Part shown: piece after piece, positions 561-20,844 of the stretch
How positions within the stretch are numbered: the first letter of the stretch is position 1
How the letters are laid out: each line of letters opens with the position of its first letter
IMG/VR virus record: IMGVR_UViG_3300010389_000131
Location: 1 to 24,453 of that record
Strand: one strand, 5' to 3'
From: a virus
DNA length: 24,453 bases
Notes under the pieces: model-generated
Database searches by the model: none
The model's input: the letters and a program-made list of their open reading frames with translations, nothing else
Told to the model about the DNA's origin: nothing
Position numbers and translations under genes: made by a program

Positions 561-881
561 AGCATTATTTAATTAAAATCGCTAAAAAATGTTTTATTTA
601 TCATCTTTTTCTTCTGGTTTGGATGTACACAGTAACTATCCAGACGTTTCCTCCTTGGTAAGTGTTTTAGGTCCTTATAGTTTCGACGAGGCTCGACATC
701 AATTCCACCAATTATGGTGTGAATTGTGGGATCTAGATCAAACGGATTTAGCAGAATCCGATTCTGCTTTTTTCCGATCTAGTTTTTTCCAACGTTCTGA
801 CGGACGGCTTGGATTCGACGATCAATTATTAGATCGTCACGGATGCCCAGACCACGTTTATCGTGGTGCATAAAGATTTAA

Positions 882-934
882 AATTTAGCGATTTCCTTCA
901 TCACTAACGTGGTGAGGGTTTCGCTATCTAAATT
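882..934 (+). promoter_or_regulatory. Alternative hairpin competing with the ncRNA closing helix
   Basis: Strand 882-891 (AATTTAGCGA) can pair with 921-934 (TCGC, a TATC bulge, then TAAATT), extending the 10-bp inner stem 895-904/909-918 with its TAAC loop. The same bases 884-894 form the right strand of the 11-bp helix with 576-586. The two pairings exclude each other, so the region can hold two folds. Confidence 0.55.
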
Positions 935-1005
935 AAAAGGATATGACAAAGCTTATAGACATATCCGAATAAATACATTTGCATTAATTAGACTATTGAA
1001 AAAAT

Positions 1006-1045
1006 AAAGGTGCTTTTACGATTCCAGTCGTTGCACCTTTTTTTT
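1006..1045 (+). terminator. Rho-independent terminator ending the ncRNA unit
   Basis: AAAGGTGC (1006-1013) pairs perfectly with GCACCTTT (1033-1040). An inner ACGA/TCGT helix and a run of Ts to 1045 complete it. It lies 68 bases before the HNH start and separates the RNA unit from the packaging genes. Confidence 0.88.
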
Positions 1046-5709: not shown

Positions 5710-5711
5710 CG

Positions 5712-5755
5712 AAAAACTCGGCTATCATTCTATTTGATAAGCCGAGTTTTTTTTT
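5712..5755 (+). terminator. Strong bidirectional terminator
   Basis: AAAAACTCGGCTATC (5712-5726) pairs with GATAAGCCGAGTTTTT (5736-5751) with one bulged A, followed by Ts to 5755. The A-run on the left provides the T-run for the opposite strand. It lies between the plus-strand packaging operon and the minus-strand gene pair, so it can serve both. Confidence 0.9.
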
Positions 5756-11728: not shown

Positions 11729-12151
11729 ATGCCAACAACTGGAATCGTAAAAGGTGGTGCTATTAGACTTTCAGTCGATGGCACAACAGTAGCAAAAACA
11801 ACGAGTGGTGACATAAGTTTTACCACCGCAACGGAAGCCATACAGCATGATGATAACGTCACAGCTGGCGGTATCTCTTGGGATAAGGCTGACGCTGTAT
11901 CTAATTCTGTAACTGTAAATGCCGAAGCATTCTACGCAGAGTCTGAACAATTTGAGACATTCTGGGCAGGTGTTACGGGAGGCACAAAATTGAGCAATGT
12001 AAAAGTAAGCACAGGCGTAACGGGCGACCTTGAATTTACAGGGACATTTGTAGTTACATCATTAAATCTTACTTATTCGACAACGGATAGAGCGAAGTTC
12101 TCGCTATCTCTACAAAGTGACGGAGAAGTAACAAGAGCAGCAATAGCGTAA
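11729..12151 (+). CDS. Major tail protein (tube)
   Basis: A 140-residue beta-rich, Ser/Thr-rich protein with the pattern of small TP901-1-type tail tube proteins: GGAIRLSVDGTTVAKTTSGDISF at the start, the D-D-N-V turn, W-D-K-A-D-A-V-S-N-S-V-T-V strand, FETFWAGVTGGTKL, and a closing strand pair ending in LSLQSDGEVTRA. It should polymerise around the tape measure to form the tail tube. A hairpin terminator immediately follows, as is usual for a tube gene that must be made in large amounts. Position ahead of the frameshifted chaperones and tape measure is decisive. Confidence 0.85.
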   Translation: MPTTGIVKGGAIRLSVDGTTVAKTTSGDISFTTATEAIQHDDNVTAGGISWDKADAVSNSVTVNAEAFYAESEQFETFWAGVTGGTKLSNVKVSTGVTGDLEFTGTFVVTSLNLTYSTTDRAKFSLSLQSDGEVTRAAIA

Positions 12152-12175: not shown

Positions 12176-12209
12176 GGAGTAGCTTATGTGGTGTGGGCTA
12201 CTCCTTTTT
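12176..12209 (+). terminator. Terminator/attenuator after the major tail gene
   Basis: GGAGTAGC (12176-12183) pairs with GCTACTCC (12197-12204), followed by TTTTT. The downstream tail genes lie on the same strand with no other visible promoter, so it probably acts as a partial stop that keeps tube protein mRNA more abundant. Confidence 0.85.
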
Positions 12210-12841: not shown

Positions 12842-15640
12842 ATGGGTACTAGGATAGGTTCTTTGTTGGTACGGATGGGATTGGCTACCGATGAGAAGAG
12901 TTTCGATTCAGGTAAAAAAACCATCAATAAATTCTCAAGGTATAGTAATCGTCGGTCAAGTGCCATCTCAAAATCATTCATGCGGATGGGTGGTGCTATT
13001 ACAGGCGCATTTGCCATTGGTAGTGTTGTGAAAAATGCAGCGTCTACAATTGGCAATTTCGAGCAATCGGTAGCGAATCTATCAGCGATTACGGGCAAGT
13101 CGGCAAGTCAAATGTCGGTGTTTAGCGATGCAGCGAAGGAGATAGGTGGGAGGTCTGCATTCTCAGCTAGTCAGGTGGTCTTATTGCAAACGGAATTAGC
13201 GAAGTTAGGTTTTTCAGAAAAGGAGATTTTAAATAGTACGGAGGCGGTTGGTAATTTATCTATTGCATTGGGTACTGATGCAGCGAGTGCAGCAGCATTT
13301 GCAGGTGCTTCGTTGCGGTCGTTTGGTATTGATGCGAGTGACACGGAGTCGGTAATGGATTTACTTGCAAAGGCAACGACAAGGAGCGCACTTGACTTTG
13401 AGAAGCTGAATGTTGGTTTGTCGATTGTTGGTCCAGTTGCGAAGGCTGCAAACGTGGACATCGCTAGGACTACTTCTATCCTTGGGGTGTTAGCGGATAG
13501 GGGTCTTGATGCGTCAACGGCGGGGACTTCGTTAAGGAATATTTACTTAGAATTGGCAGCGTCGGGCATGACTTATGAAGAAGCCATGCAAGAGATAAAC
13601 CAAAGCCAAAACAAGCTAAATACCGCTAATGAGTTATTCGGTAAACGGGGAGCGACAACGGCGCTTATTTTAGCAGAGAATTCTACAGCGGTTGATACCT
13701 TAGATGAAAGTTTGCGAACGGCAAATGGTACATTGGAAACCATGACCGAAAAGCGATTAAATACGTTGCAGGGTAAGTTAACATTATTACAGTCATCATG
13801 GGAAAAGCTTGTTCTTTCAATTGAAAGTGGTGATGGTTTCTTTGCACAATCAGCAAATTCACTATTAGATTTTGCTGATTCAGTGATAACAGCAGTCACT
13901 CCTGTAAAAGACCTGACTAAGCAAGTACAAAAAGAGTACAATGTCTTCAATAGGATGGTTGGCGTTTTAAAAAATGTTGAATCTTCCGATTCATCCAGAG
14001 CCAGTGCGATTAAAAGGCTAAAATCTGATTACCCAGACTATATTAAAAATTTAGATTTAGAGAGTGCAACTCTAGAAGAATTAAATAAGATTCAGAAGGA
14101 ATATAACGACCAAGCAGCTAAAAAATATAAAGAAGCTAAAAAACAAACAGAACTAAATAGATTGCTCAAAGAACAAGCGGAATTGCAAGGGTATATTACT
14201 GATTTTGAGTTAGGTGAGTCAACGATATTGAATACTCTTGATGATTGGGGTTTTGAAAGTGCTTCGGAGGCAGTAGATATTTATAGAAATAAACTTGAAG
14301 AAGTTGAAAATCAAATACGAGCAATCAGAGAAGAACAAGTGCGATCAAATGGATTATCGCAGGAAACTATTGATAGGTTAAGTCGTAGTCATGAGAGTTT
14401 AGATGAGCAATTAAAAAAGCTAGGATTAAGCACAGATAAACAATCCAGTGCATTTATTTCACTCGGTGATCAATTAGAAAACCAGAAGAAAGTTGTAGAA
14501 GGTCTTGAAAAATCATTACTAGGCTTGGATGGTAGTTCGAGCGAGTATTATGAAACTGTCAGCGAGTTAAATAAAGAAAAGGCAATACTCAATGAGTTAA
14601 CAAAAAAATCAAAAGGCAATGTAGAAAAATTAGCTAAGCCCTACAAAAATCTCTCATCTCGTATATCTGAATCTAACTCGCTGATTAAACAACTTACCGA
14701 AGAATACATTTTAAGTGGATCCACAGATAGCGCAAAATTAAGTGCTATTCAAAATGAGATTGAAAAGCGTGACAACCTGAATAATATTTACACCGCTTCC
14801 ATCAACTTACAAAAACGTTTAGAAGAAGCAAGCGACAGTACTATTGAATCGCTGCAAAATGCGCTGAACTTAAAAGATAGGATTTTTAGCGGTGGCGTTG
14901 AACCTTTGGATGCGTTACCTACTAGCACCCCGTCGGCATTACAAAGTACAAGCACATCTTCGCTATTATCGGGTGAAAGTGGCGGTAGTGCATTGCAAGC
15001 TCCTGGGCTTGAAGTTGGAGCAGGTATTGCTGAATCATCACCAAACGAAGGCATGATAGCAGAAATTTTGGGAATAGAGAGCGCATACGCTTCTTTAAAT
15101 GAAGAAATAGCCAAGAATTATGAACTATTGGCAAAGGGTAATGAATTGACACCAGAGCAGAGGGAAGCAGCAAAGGAAGCAATAGAATTGGCAGAAGCAC
15201 AGAAAAAAGCCGAAATAGAAAAAGGACTGGCTTCTATACAGAGTGCTAGTGATGCGGTTAATGCTGCTAGGCAGTTTGTAAAAGCAAAACTTTCTGAATT
15301 TATAGCAGCCCAATTAGTTAGTTTGGCATCCGCAGGGCCGTTAGGTCTTTTGGCAGCAGGTGCGATTGTGGGTACAGCTAACAGCTTATTCGATAAATTT
15401 ATTCCAAAACTAGCGAATGGGGGTATTATTGACAGCCCTACATTCGCCATGCTAGGTGAATACCCGGGGGCGAAGAATAACGTTGAGATTGCCACACCAG
15501 AGAAGCTATTGCGTAAGATAGTTCGTGAAGAAGGCGGTGGAATGGGTGGACGCCTTAATATAAATATCAATGCTATTGCACAAGGTGATGATTTGAGGTA
15601 TGTGGTCAACCGTGCGGAATTTCAAAACGGAAGAGTATGA
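12842..15640 (+). CDS. Tail tape measure protein
   Basis: A 932-residue protein, one of the longest in the window. The N-terminal third matches the TP901-type tape measure core: FEQSVANLSAITGKS, FSDAAKEIGGRSAFSASQVV, the GTDAASAAAFAGASLRSFGID segment, ARTTSILGVLADRGLDASTAGTSLRN and TMTEKRLNTLQGKLTLLQSSWEKL. The middle (about 380-700) is long coiled coil. A hydrophobic stretch near residue 825-850 (ASAGPLGLLAAGAIVG) may enter the membrane during DNA ejection. The end has the usual LANGGIIDSPTFAMLGEYPGAKNNVEIATPEK signature. By the usual 0.15 nm per residue this implies a tail of about 140 nm (inference). The stop overlaps the next ATG. Confidence 0.95.
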   Translation: MGTRIGSLLVRMGLATDEKSFDSGKKTINKFSRYSNRRSSAISKSFMRMGGAITGAFAIGSVVKNAASTIGNFEQSVANLSAITGKSASQMSVFSDAAKEIGGRSAFSASQVVLLQTELAKLGFSEKEILNSTEAVGNLSIALGTDAASAAAFAGASLRSFGIDASDTESVMDLLAKATTRSALDFEKLNVGLSIVGPVAKAANVDIARTTSILGVLADRGLDASTAGTSLRNIYLELAASGMTYEEAMQEINQSQNKLNTANELFGKRGATTALILAENSTAVDTLDESLRTANGTLETMTEKRLNTLQGKLTLLQSSWEKLVLSIESGDGFFAQSANSLLDFADSVITAVTPVKDLTKQVQKEYNVFNRMVGVLKNVESSDSSRASAIKRLKSDYPDYIKNLDLESATLEELNKIQKEYNDQAAKKYKEAKKQTELNRLLKEQAELQGYITDFELGESTILNTLDDWGFESASEAVDIYRNKLEEVENQIRAIREEQVRSNGLSQETIDRLSRSHESLDEQLKKLGLSTDKQSSAFISLGDQLENQKKVVEGLEKSLLGLDGSSSEYYETVSELNKEKAILNELTKKSKGNVEKLAKPYKNLSSRISESNSLIKQLTEEYILSGSTDSAKLSAIQNEIEKRDNLNNIYTASINLQKRLEEASDSTIESLQNALNLKDRIFSGGVEPLDALPTSTPSALQSTSTSSLLSGESGGSALQAPGLEVGAGIAESSPNEGMIAEILGIESAYASLNEEIAKNYELLAKGNELTPEQREAAKEAIELAEAQKKAEIEKGLASIQSASDAVNAARQFVKAKLSEFIAAQLVSLASAGPLGLLAAGAIVGTANSLFDKFIPKLANGGIIDSPTFAMLGEYPGAKNNVEIATPEKLLRKIVREEGGGMGGRLNININAIAQGDDLRYVVNRAEFQNGRV

Positions 15641-18327: not shown

Positions 18328-20844
18328 ATGAAAAAACAAATATGGCTTTTTATCACTCTATTGCCTTGCTTTATTTATGGACAAGGCATACCGCTCTACA
18401 TGATAGAGAATGCACCAAGCAGCGACCATATCATCCAAATGGCTGCCGATAGTGTCGGGGGTGCCTGGGTGCATAAGGATAGTTTGGGATTGCAAATTGA
18501 TAGTGTTACGACAACTGGTGATACGATTTCTATTTATTCTGGAGGGGGGATATTTAAGGTGGCAGATAATAAACTTATTGACGGGGTGGCGCTTCCCGAC
18601 TTTGGTTTCCCAACACAGTATTATATAAAATTTAAAGATAGGAATGATCTCATTTATGACACTCCTTCAGTCAATTTGGGGTCTTTTGAATTGTCCTATG
18701 ATGATGCATCTAATCAATGGAATTTTAGCAGATTTAATAGCACAAGTGTTTTTAATTGGGATGACAGAAAAACCCAATCTTATGTTATAAATGATACGTT
18801 AACTATTATCCAGCCATTGAGCAGTAGGAGCTCTGAAGGGTTTACGGGGTTAGATACCTTAACTTTTGTGGGTGGTGGTGCCACAGATACGCTACTGATT
18901 AGAAATATAGTAAGCGATAGCATTGCAGCTATTGATACCAACGATGTCACGGGATTGCTTGATTTTGTAACTAACAACTCATCAGGTGGTTCAGCAGATG
19001 GTGTAGTATCAGATATGCAATTAGTAGGTACAGATTTAACAGTTACTGGGTCAAATGGTGGTTTTAATGGAACAGTAGATTTGTCTAGTTTATCAGGAAG
19101 TGCCACCGACACGGCACTGATTAGAAGCATTGTAAGCGATAGTGTTTTGTGGTCTACCAATGTAGATGGAGATGCGTACATCAATGAAGCTGTAGGAATT
19201 TTTAATACCGACCCTTTTTATCCCTTGCAAGTAGGCAAAAATCCTGCATTTTCAGCAGGTTCGAGTATTGCAATCATTGGTGACGGGGCAAATGGTATGG
19301 TCATCAAGGAATCAACAGCATCCAATCCCTATTCGGCTGCCTTCTTTGGACCTGTGAAGTTTTGGAATGGTTCAGAAGGAGGAGGGGCATTGATTAATGC
19401 GAATGATGATGCAGGTACAGCAGGGCAAGTATTGACCAGTCAAGGTGAAGCGTCAACGTTTACTTGGGAAACCATTGATACCAATACGGTAGTTGGCTTG
19501 GGTCCTTTTGTAAGTAATAATGCGCCTAGTCAATTATGGACAGAATCGGGTGCGAATGTTTATCGAAGTTCGGGGAATGTAGGGATAGGCACAACAAACC
19601 CAACAACACCTTTATATGTACTTGGTACTAGCCTACTAAATGGCAGAACAATAATGCTTGATTGGTTAGATTTAAGGTCATATTTAGAAGTTGATGGAAC
19701 TATTACTGTCAAAGAGCCATCAACAGGTAACATTCTTACGGCTTCAGCAAATAATATTACAAGAACAACCATAGATTATAGAGGTCAACAATCGTGGAAT
19801 ATTTCAAGTGGGTCAGCAGAAGTGGGTAAAATTGGTTATGCTACACCAGCTGGTTATCCTGGGATCGTATTATGGACTGGCGCATCTTACGATCTCAATA
19901 GATTTGATATAGTCAATCGTGCTAATCACTTTACACTTGGGTATAGTACAAATACTGATGCAATAGGTATTTATCAGACAGGGAACGTCGGAATAGATAA
20001 ATCAAATCCTCTTGCAAAACTTCATATAGGGGGGGATTTACGGATTGACGACTACACAGGAGGCACACCAACGGGGTTGCTCGCCAAAGATGCAACAGGG
20101 CAGATAGTAGATGCCGATGCAAATTTAATAGCCAACACCCAATTATGGACTGAATCGGGGGCGGATGTTTATCGAAGTTCAGGCAACGTAGGCATAGGCA
20201 CAGCAACACCAAGTGCTGACCTTGATTTAATAGGCAATGCCGAAATAAATGGTAACGCTACAATAACCGACAGCCTTAATGTCATAGGATCGATCAGGGT
20301 TCACTCTTCATTGTATGATGTAAATAACAGTAAAGGGTCTGATGGTCAGCTTGCATTGAATGCAGAAATACCAGGGTCTTCCGATGGTTTTGTTTGGACA
20401 GATCAAGACCAAGCATTAGTTAGCACCCACTATGCAACATTGTATGATGCATCTGCTACTTTGTCGAGCGTAGGCACATCTTATACCGTTGTGAACTTTG
20501 ATGATGCCGTAGCAATCCAACATGGTAGTTCAGCAGACGCAAACGCAGCAAACGAAAGAATTGATATTGATAGGACAGGATGGTATGAAGTAGACTATAA
20601 TATTAGTTTTTCAACAAATACAAGTGCGGAATTTCAAATAGCCGTTATTGATGGTTCGGGTGCTGTTATATGTGGGCTTCAAAATGATTATGTAAATAGT
20701 AGTAATGATTTTGGAAATGTCAGTACAAGTAATATAGCCAATTTGCTAGATACCGATAATTTGAGATTAGCGATAAAAACAAGTAGCGGAACAGCTAATT
20801 TAGCAGACATTAACGCAACTTTAAAAATTAGACGAATTAGATAA
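18328..20844 (+). CDS. Modular tail fibre / receptor-binding protein with signal peptide
   Basis: An 838-residue protein. Residues 1-18 form a standard signal peptide (KK, then a hydrophobic core ending IYG) with Gln next, as Bacteroidetes type I signal peptidase substrates prefer. The body has repeated modules: ATDTxLIRxIVSDS at about 185 and 259, and QLWTESGAxVYRSSGNVGIGT at 402 and 605, with a related GNVGIDKSNP at about 552. Such GNVGIGTxxP repeats occur in fibre and surface proteins of Bacteroidetes and their phages and suggest a trimeric beta-helical shaft. Residues from about 702 (YATLYDASATLSSVGTSY to the end) look like a C1q/TNF-type jelly roll that would form the receptor-binding tip. 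Position after the tail-tip gene supports the fibre role. A signal peptide is unusual for a virion protein. Confidence 0.75.
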   Translation: MKKQIWLFITLLPCFIYGQGIPLYMIENAPSSDHIIQMAADSVGGAWVHKDSLGLQIDSVTTTGDTISIYSGGGIFKVADNKLIDGVALPDFGFPTQYYIKFKDRNDLIYDTPSVNLGSFELSYDDASNQWNFSRFNSTSVFNWDDRKTQSYVINDTLTIIQPLSSRSSEGFTGLDTLTFVGGGATDTLLIRNIVSDSIAAIDTNDVTGLLDFVTNNSSGGSADGVVSDMQLVGTDLTVTGSNGGFNGTVDLSSLSGSATDTALIRSIVSDSVLWSTNVDGDAYINEAVGIFNTDPFYPLQVGKNPAFSAGSSIAIIGDGANGMVIKESTASNPYSAAFFGPVKFWNGSEGGGALINANDDAGTAGQVLTSQGEASTFTWETIDTNTVVGLGPFVSNNAPSQLWTESGANVYRSSGNVGIGTTNPTTPLYVLGTSLLNGRTIMLDWLDLRSYLEVDGTITVKEPSTGNILTASANNITRTTIDYRGQQSWNISSGSAEVGKIGYATPAGYPGIVLWTGASYDLNRFDIVNRANHFTLGYSTNTDAIGIYQTGNVGIDKSNPLAKLHIGGDLRIDDYTGGTPTGLLAKDATGQIVDADANLIANTQLWTESGADVYRSSGNVGIGTATPSADLDLIGNAEINGNATITDSLNVIGSIRVHSSLYDVNNSKGSDGQLALNAEIPGSSDGFVWTDQDQALVSTHYATLYDASATLSSVGTSYTVVNFDDAVAIQHGSSADANAANERIDIDRTGWYEVDYNISFSTNTSAEFQIAVIDGSGAVICGLQNDYVNSSNDFGNVSTSNIANLLDTDNLRLAIKTSSGTANLADINATLKIRRIR
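18880..18924 (+). repeat. Fibre module repeat A, copy 1
   Basis: This 45-bp in-frame unit encodes ATDTLLIRNIVSDSI. The second copy is at 19102-19146. Confidence 0.75.
19102..19146 (+). repeat. Fibre module repeat A, copy 2
   Basis: This copy encodes ATDTALIRSIVSDSV, differing from copy 1 at three residues. It lies 222 bp downstream, so copies are separated by whole codons. Confidence 0.75.
19531..19600 (+). repeat. Fibre module repeat B, copy 1
   Basis: Encodes the QLWTESGANVYRSSGNVGIG module. It is followed by TTNPTTPLYV, a hinge into the next beta segment. Confidence 0.8.
20140..20209 (+). repeat. Fibre module repeat B, copy 2
   Basis: Encodes the near-identical QLWTESGADVYRSSGNVGIG module 609 bp after copy 1. 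The DNA is also closely similar, which points to recent duplication or exchange. Confidence 0.8.

Follow-up and report, generated by a model that had tools for sequence, protein, structure and literature searches.

The window analysed here is a virus record of 24,453 bases, taken over its whole length. Its gene order begins with an endonuclease/resolvase-like ORF, which is followed by the segment 566-1045 and by genes for an HNH protein, a phosphoesterase, TerS, TerL, the portal, the protease, the capsid and connectors; the portal and protease were named by position and by their relatives. The order continues with the major tail protein, the tape measure, a fibre-like protein and a peptidase, after which SSB and other genes are found on the opposite strand. 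Among named phages, the nearest matches of the phosphoesterase sit in Cellulophaga phages, and a Bacteroidota host is therefore likely on sequence grounds; the phage itself is unclassified. Positions 1-46 of the window, like 15020-15065 of the related contig L118, correspond to Nextera/Tn5 adapter sequence at a contig end, which we take to be an assembly artefact, so the window begins at a library break and not at a phage end. Other features were observed along the window: a short tandem repeat, TTGAGATGG, at 2782-2818, downstream of the phosphoesterase gene; a second strong long-loop intrinsic terminator at 5711-5752, between the packaging genes and the portal, which has no long complementary partner; and, in the fibre-like ORF 18328-20844, both an apparent Sec signal peptide at the start (MKKQIWLFITLLPCFIYGQ), unusual in a tail protein, and a 67-nt imperfect direct repeat at 19531 and 20140. 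The HNH gene next to the segment encodes a short protein, as is the case for the HNH proteins adjoining terminases in relatives; a HEARO-like link between the segment and this gene was considered and found no support in Rfam. The segment comprises the following elements.

566-1045, + strand: structured transcription unit (predicted RNA of about 480 nt), recognised by its fold z-score and its absence from Rfam
553-560, + strand: possible promoter -7 box, TATATTGC, which fits TAnnTTGY and predicts a start at about 565
576-586, + strand: 5' arm of an 11-bp long-range helix with 884-894, located just before the ORF start codon
589-873, + strand: ORF of 94 codons with neither Lys nor Ile, possibly translated in view of a period-3 signal
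743-768, + strand: hairpins 743-760 and 750-768, which exclude each other, the second followed by a T run, inside the ORF
851-867, + strand: predicted hairpin ACCACG-TTTAT-CGTGGT
875-934, + strand: long local hairpin containing 884-894 (z -5.7 for 875-940)
939-966, + strand: predicted hairpin GGATATG...CATATCC
974-981, + strand: possible sigmaA -7 box, TACATTTG, suggested by a published motif (PMC9723704) and of a kind present at chance frequency
1006-1045, + strand: intrinsic terminator, AAAGGTGC-[19-nt loop]-GCACCTTT followed by a T run, predicted from the fold

The segment 566-1045 is a real structured unit that belongs to no known RNA family. Folded from one sequence, its + strand reaches an MFE of -140.4 kcal/mol (z -7.1), a value matched by none of 100 shuffles, and the strong folding that a preliminary description of this DNA had read as a large structured RNA is thus upheld. 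The same is true of the G-U pairs that had been read as a sign of RNA, since the weaker fold of the reverse strand (-126.3 kcal/mol, z -5.2) fits the use of such pairs in a + strand RNA. The fold signal is concentrated in about 660-990, where local z-scores go down to -6, and in the terminator, whereas local structure in the first ~90 nt is within chance. Inside the ORF, a nested hairpin at 735-780 has a z-score of -3.9, and the alternative hairpins at 743-768 could possibly act as an attenuator. The perfect 11-bp helix 576-586/884-894 that had been pointed out is present, but a helix as long and as distant was found in 21 of 500 shuffles (~4%), and forcing it costs 2.2 kcal/mol relative to the MFE, the competitor being the local hairpin 875-934. 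Likewise, the proposed TCTG/CAGA pseudoknot amounts to a 4-bp pairing, which is unremarkable and weaker than claimed. Comparison with Rfam at the gathering score, which had been recommended, gave no match, including none to the covariance models of GOLLD, ROOL, OLE and the other families, and relaxing the threshold returned weak unrelated families far below gathering.

The ends of the unit are also recognisable. The TAnnTTGY motif corresponds to the SM5 box of Flavobacterium psychrophilum (PMC9723704), and with it the promoter-like start noted earlier can be narrowed to TATATTGC at 553-560, with a predicted +1 at 565. It is the position of this box that speaks for it, because boxes of this type occur in the window at chance frequency (45 seen, 44 expected). 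The second box, TACATTTG, could possibly direct transcription of a short RNA from about 986. The terminator at the 3' end proved as strong as had been stated (z -4.8 alone), which supports the view that a self-contained unit, terminator included, adjoins the HNH and terminase genes. Another flavobacterial sigmaA -7 box, TATATTTG, lies at 1087-1094, just upstream of the HNH gene, and is a probable separate promoter for the HNH and packaging genes; therefore, the RNA unit is probably not the leader of those genes.

The 19-nt loop of the terminator has a complementary partner far downstream, which the earlier interpretation of the segment as an RNA had left out. Three further features are involved.

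1013-1033, + strand: putative antisense element, CTTTTACGATTCCAGTCGTTG, which takes in the terminator loop together with its flanks; 20 of its 21 bases are complementary to 11733-11753
11729-12151, + strand: predicted target, the major tail protein gene (PHROG 1407, Pfam Phage_tail_2)
11733-11753, + strand: predicted pairing site in codons 2-9 of the tail mRNA, located by complementarity

The identity of the target gene is clear from its profile matches (PHROG 1407, E 2.4e-13; Phage_tail_2, E 5.2e-11). The complementarity includes 16 unbroken pairs (E 4.9e-4 in a self-search of the window), spans a distance of 10.7 kb and ends on a site that abuts the start codon. No other distant complementarity in the window equals it (score 18, the runner-up having 15), and only one of 1000 dinucleotide-shuffled versions of the RNA scored 18 or more when compared with the remainder of the window (a single 19). 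No third site within three mismatches was found in the window, where none was expected. The loop duplex is also the most stable in the window at the tail site (-30.3 kcal/mol, against -24.2 for the next), but duplex energy discriminates poorly: whole shuffled RNAs reach -30.4 kcal/mol against start sites, nearly the -30.9 observed, and it is therefore the contiguous match, rather than the energy, that constitutes the evidence. By the same measure, a second candidate target, the hairpin that follows the tail gene, was discarded: its predicted pairing with RNA 836-871 has -28.2 kcal/mol, and shuffles give equal energy. Antisense loops are not a general habit of terminators: 134 long-loop terminators, taken from the window and from related loci, were surveyed, and apart from this one none scored above 13. 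The match emerged from a genome-wide look, so the argument from location is partly post hoc, and the placement in a loop together with the adjacency to a start codon carries no clean p-value because both were noticed after the fact. With regard to accessibility, eight of the 19 loop bases are predicted to be fully unpaired and most of the others lie in a weak inner stem, a 5-bp helix that would slow pairing, while much of the target site in the tail gene is predicted to be partly open. As expected of a phage antisense RNA that regulates its own mRNA, a long stretch complementary to the region of translation initiation is present (20/21, codons 2-9), and a discrete unit, a terminator and an accessible loop seed are predicted to accompany it. 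Directly 3' of the major tail gene, a terminator-like hairpin with a T run (GGAGTAGC...GCTACTCC, 12177-12205) was also seen, which suggests that expression of the tail gene may be independent of that of the genes downstream.

Relatives of the locus were gathered by means of TerL, the capsid, the phosphoesterase, the tail protein, ORF 589-873, a tail-start pattern, and alignments of the phosphoesterase and capsid. No homologue of 566-1045 was detected by blastn against phages and plasmids, nor by blastn and nhmmer in about 200 related loci; comparison with 300 genomes of the family of genome G001 gave just chance-level matches of ~30-60 nt, and a covariance model (R1) of 838-970 found no match over 1.9 Mb of loci. 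The only close relative, L024, has a capsid 98% identical and is a 3.1-kb contig, too short to include the loop or the target site. The 35-kb genome G003 has most of its module in common with the window (24-52% protein identity) but lacks the RNA as well as any matching loop, and no such loop was seen in any of the 14 other contigs with the tail gene, G003 included, most of these contigs being fragments. Since G003 lacks both the RNA and the loop and the L024 contig is too short, the trait is of recent origin or else restricted to a narrow lineage. No comparable structured RNA was found upstream of HNH genes in relatives. Among those gaps of related loci whose folding was computed, the one that precedes the tail gene in L125 and in L128 was structured but proved to be a coding ORF, and a 200-nt gap at L118:14021-14219 had no match in Rfam. 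In G003 (L118 12760-13120), a segment like TATATTTGAGTAACGGAAGCAATGAAGC recurs before successive small genes, and these repeats are probably a family of phage promoters.

Taken together, we consider it on balance slightly probable that 566-1045 is a transcription unit whose terminator hairpin doubles as an antisense element acting on the major tail mRNA. The mechanism that we infer, from transcription and pairing in the cell to repression and a biological role, would run as follows. The active form would be either the 3' element within the long transcript or the short RNA from ~986. Its 19-nt loop would pair with codons 2-9 of the tail message, beside the start codon. The bases immediately after the ATG, which this pairing would cover, lie within the footprint of the initiating ribosome, and the pairing could block ribosome loading or mark the message for decay. 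The outcome would be a limited or delayed synthesis of the tail tube, that is, a control of timing in infection; alternatively, if the phage is temperate, the RNA might serve in the exclusion of a superinfecting sibling. Against this proposal stands the fact that the complementarity is known from a single genome and that the RNA is kept in no relative found. If true, a terminator loop antisense to a tail gene would mean that the stoichiometry or timing of assembly, or superinfection exclusion, is controlled post-transcriptionally. Phage RNAs with a predicted target among their own morphogenesis genes are few, and little is known of RNA biology in phages of Bacteroidota-type hosts. The complementarity gives the RNA a specific candidate target, and it can be tested with a single reporter.

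The upstream part of the unit raises the question of its coding capacity. The absence of Lys and Ile from ORF 589-873, already observed in the preliminary description, is confirmed, with a P of about 3e-7 under the amino-acid frequencies of the phage. The statement that the segment lacks a credible gene did not hold, however, as the computed three-base periodicity of the ORF (chi2 28.9) is inside the range of real genes of this phage; its designation as non-coding is accordingly doubtful and not established. Only three of 20,000 structure-preserving shuffles, in which its own base pairs were kept, equalled this periodicity, which comes mainly from the second half of the ORF. The codon-frame preference is attained by 0.7% of open-frame shuffles, and is weaker when judged among open-frame shuffles that also preserve structure (17 of 405). 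These properties, together with an ATG that follows the predicted start by 23-24 nt in an A-rich, unstructured leader, speak for a rival explanation, in which 566-1045 is just the mRNA of a small orphan phage protein, its body structured and its terminator ordinary, and its complementarity to the tail gene is coincidental. We regard this as rather unlikely. The composition of the ORF is unlike that of neighbouring genes, with A at 7% of first codon positions against 35% in the neighbours and an AT skew outside the range of genes; sequence and profile searches found no family or homologue for it, and its single-sequence structure model is of low confidence (pLDDT 51). In addition, its folding is stronger than in 300 of 300 synonymous shuffles (z -3.1), although this excess is modest because pieces of real genes give z-scores from -2.8 to +1.3, and the loop/tail match would stay unexplained. 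The chances that the ORF is translated are about even. Both constraints, fold and codon phase, may be real, which leads to a dual-function reading, to which we give tentative and less than even credence: a transcript that would be both the mRNA of a Lys- and Ile-free small protein and, by means of its terminator loop, a trans-acting antisense RNA repressing the phage's own tail gene. The upstream part may accordingly carry a translated ORF within a dual-function RNA, or the whole may be an mRNA with an sRNA derived from its 3' UTR; if true, a single transcript would link a small protein and virion assembly to termination.

A still less probable explanation, in line with the preliminary description, is that 566-1045 is a new type of structured non-coding RNA with a function of its own (a scaffold, a protein-binding RNA or one related to packaging). 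The strength and strand bias of the fold, the absence from Rfam, the excess of folding over synonymous shuffles and the atypical composition of the ORF all agree with it, but it requires two separate coincidences, the periodicity and the loop/tail match, and known ornate phage RNAs are widespread, whereas no relatives of this one were found in the collections searched. Finally, the loop and the start of the tail gene might share a DNA site, such as an operator for a phage regulator, as the core ACGATTCCAGTCGT is an imperfect palindrome, partly symmetric (ACGA-N6-TCGT), with only two copies, in opposite orientation; this is very improbable, since the match (21 bases) is longer than the palindromic core, one copy lies within codons 2-9 while the other is framed exactly by the arms of the terminator stem, and the symmetry is broken in the tail-gene copy (ACAA).

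With the antisense reading preferred, the comparison with known systems can be made. The likeness to GOLLD and ROOL suggested in the preliminary description extends to their being large structured phage RNAs of unknown function, and many GOLLD RNAs exceed 800 nt (PMC12286853). It is not supported further: unlike them, 566-1045 is shorter, has neither an Rfam match nor relatives nor tRNA neighbours, and contains a possible ORF. The UTR-derived flagellar sRNAs of E. coli are sigma28-dependent; they are bacterial and unrelated in sequence to 566-1045. They limit the synthesis of parts of a large assembly (PMC10578931), as 566-1045 would on the antisense reading. The segment would likely work like a phage antisense regulator while being a member of none of the RNA families tested, and the nearest to it in logic are the c4 RNA of phage P1, the CI RNA of P4 and the prophage RNA STnc6030. 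The c4 and CI RNAs adjoin their immunity targets, whereas the predicted target of 566-1045 is a distant late structural gene, and no sequence relation to them was found. More generally, RNAs of phages P1, P7 and N15, of the satellites P4 and PhiR73, and the IIR transcript of PLE are complementary to leaders of their own genes (PMC7567579). STnc6030 of prophage BTP1 is a long phage RNA that opposes structural or injection genes belonging to its own phage; a role in superinfection exclusion has been proposed for it (PMC7067206; PMC12197685). It is cis-encoded, fully antisense and of ~786 nt, with all its ORFs at most 60 aa (PMC7067206; PMC12197685), whereas for 566-1045 the proposed action on a major tail target is in trans, across 10.7 kb, with a 21-nt terminator loop as the pairing element; the segment also contains a 94-codon ORF. 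Escape mutants place the functional seed of STnc6030 at its 3' end (PMC7067206), and it is in this position of the seed, predicted here for 566-1045, and in a target belonging to the same phage that the two RNAs resemble each other.
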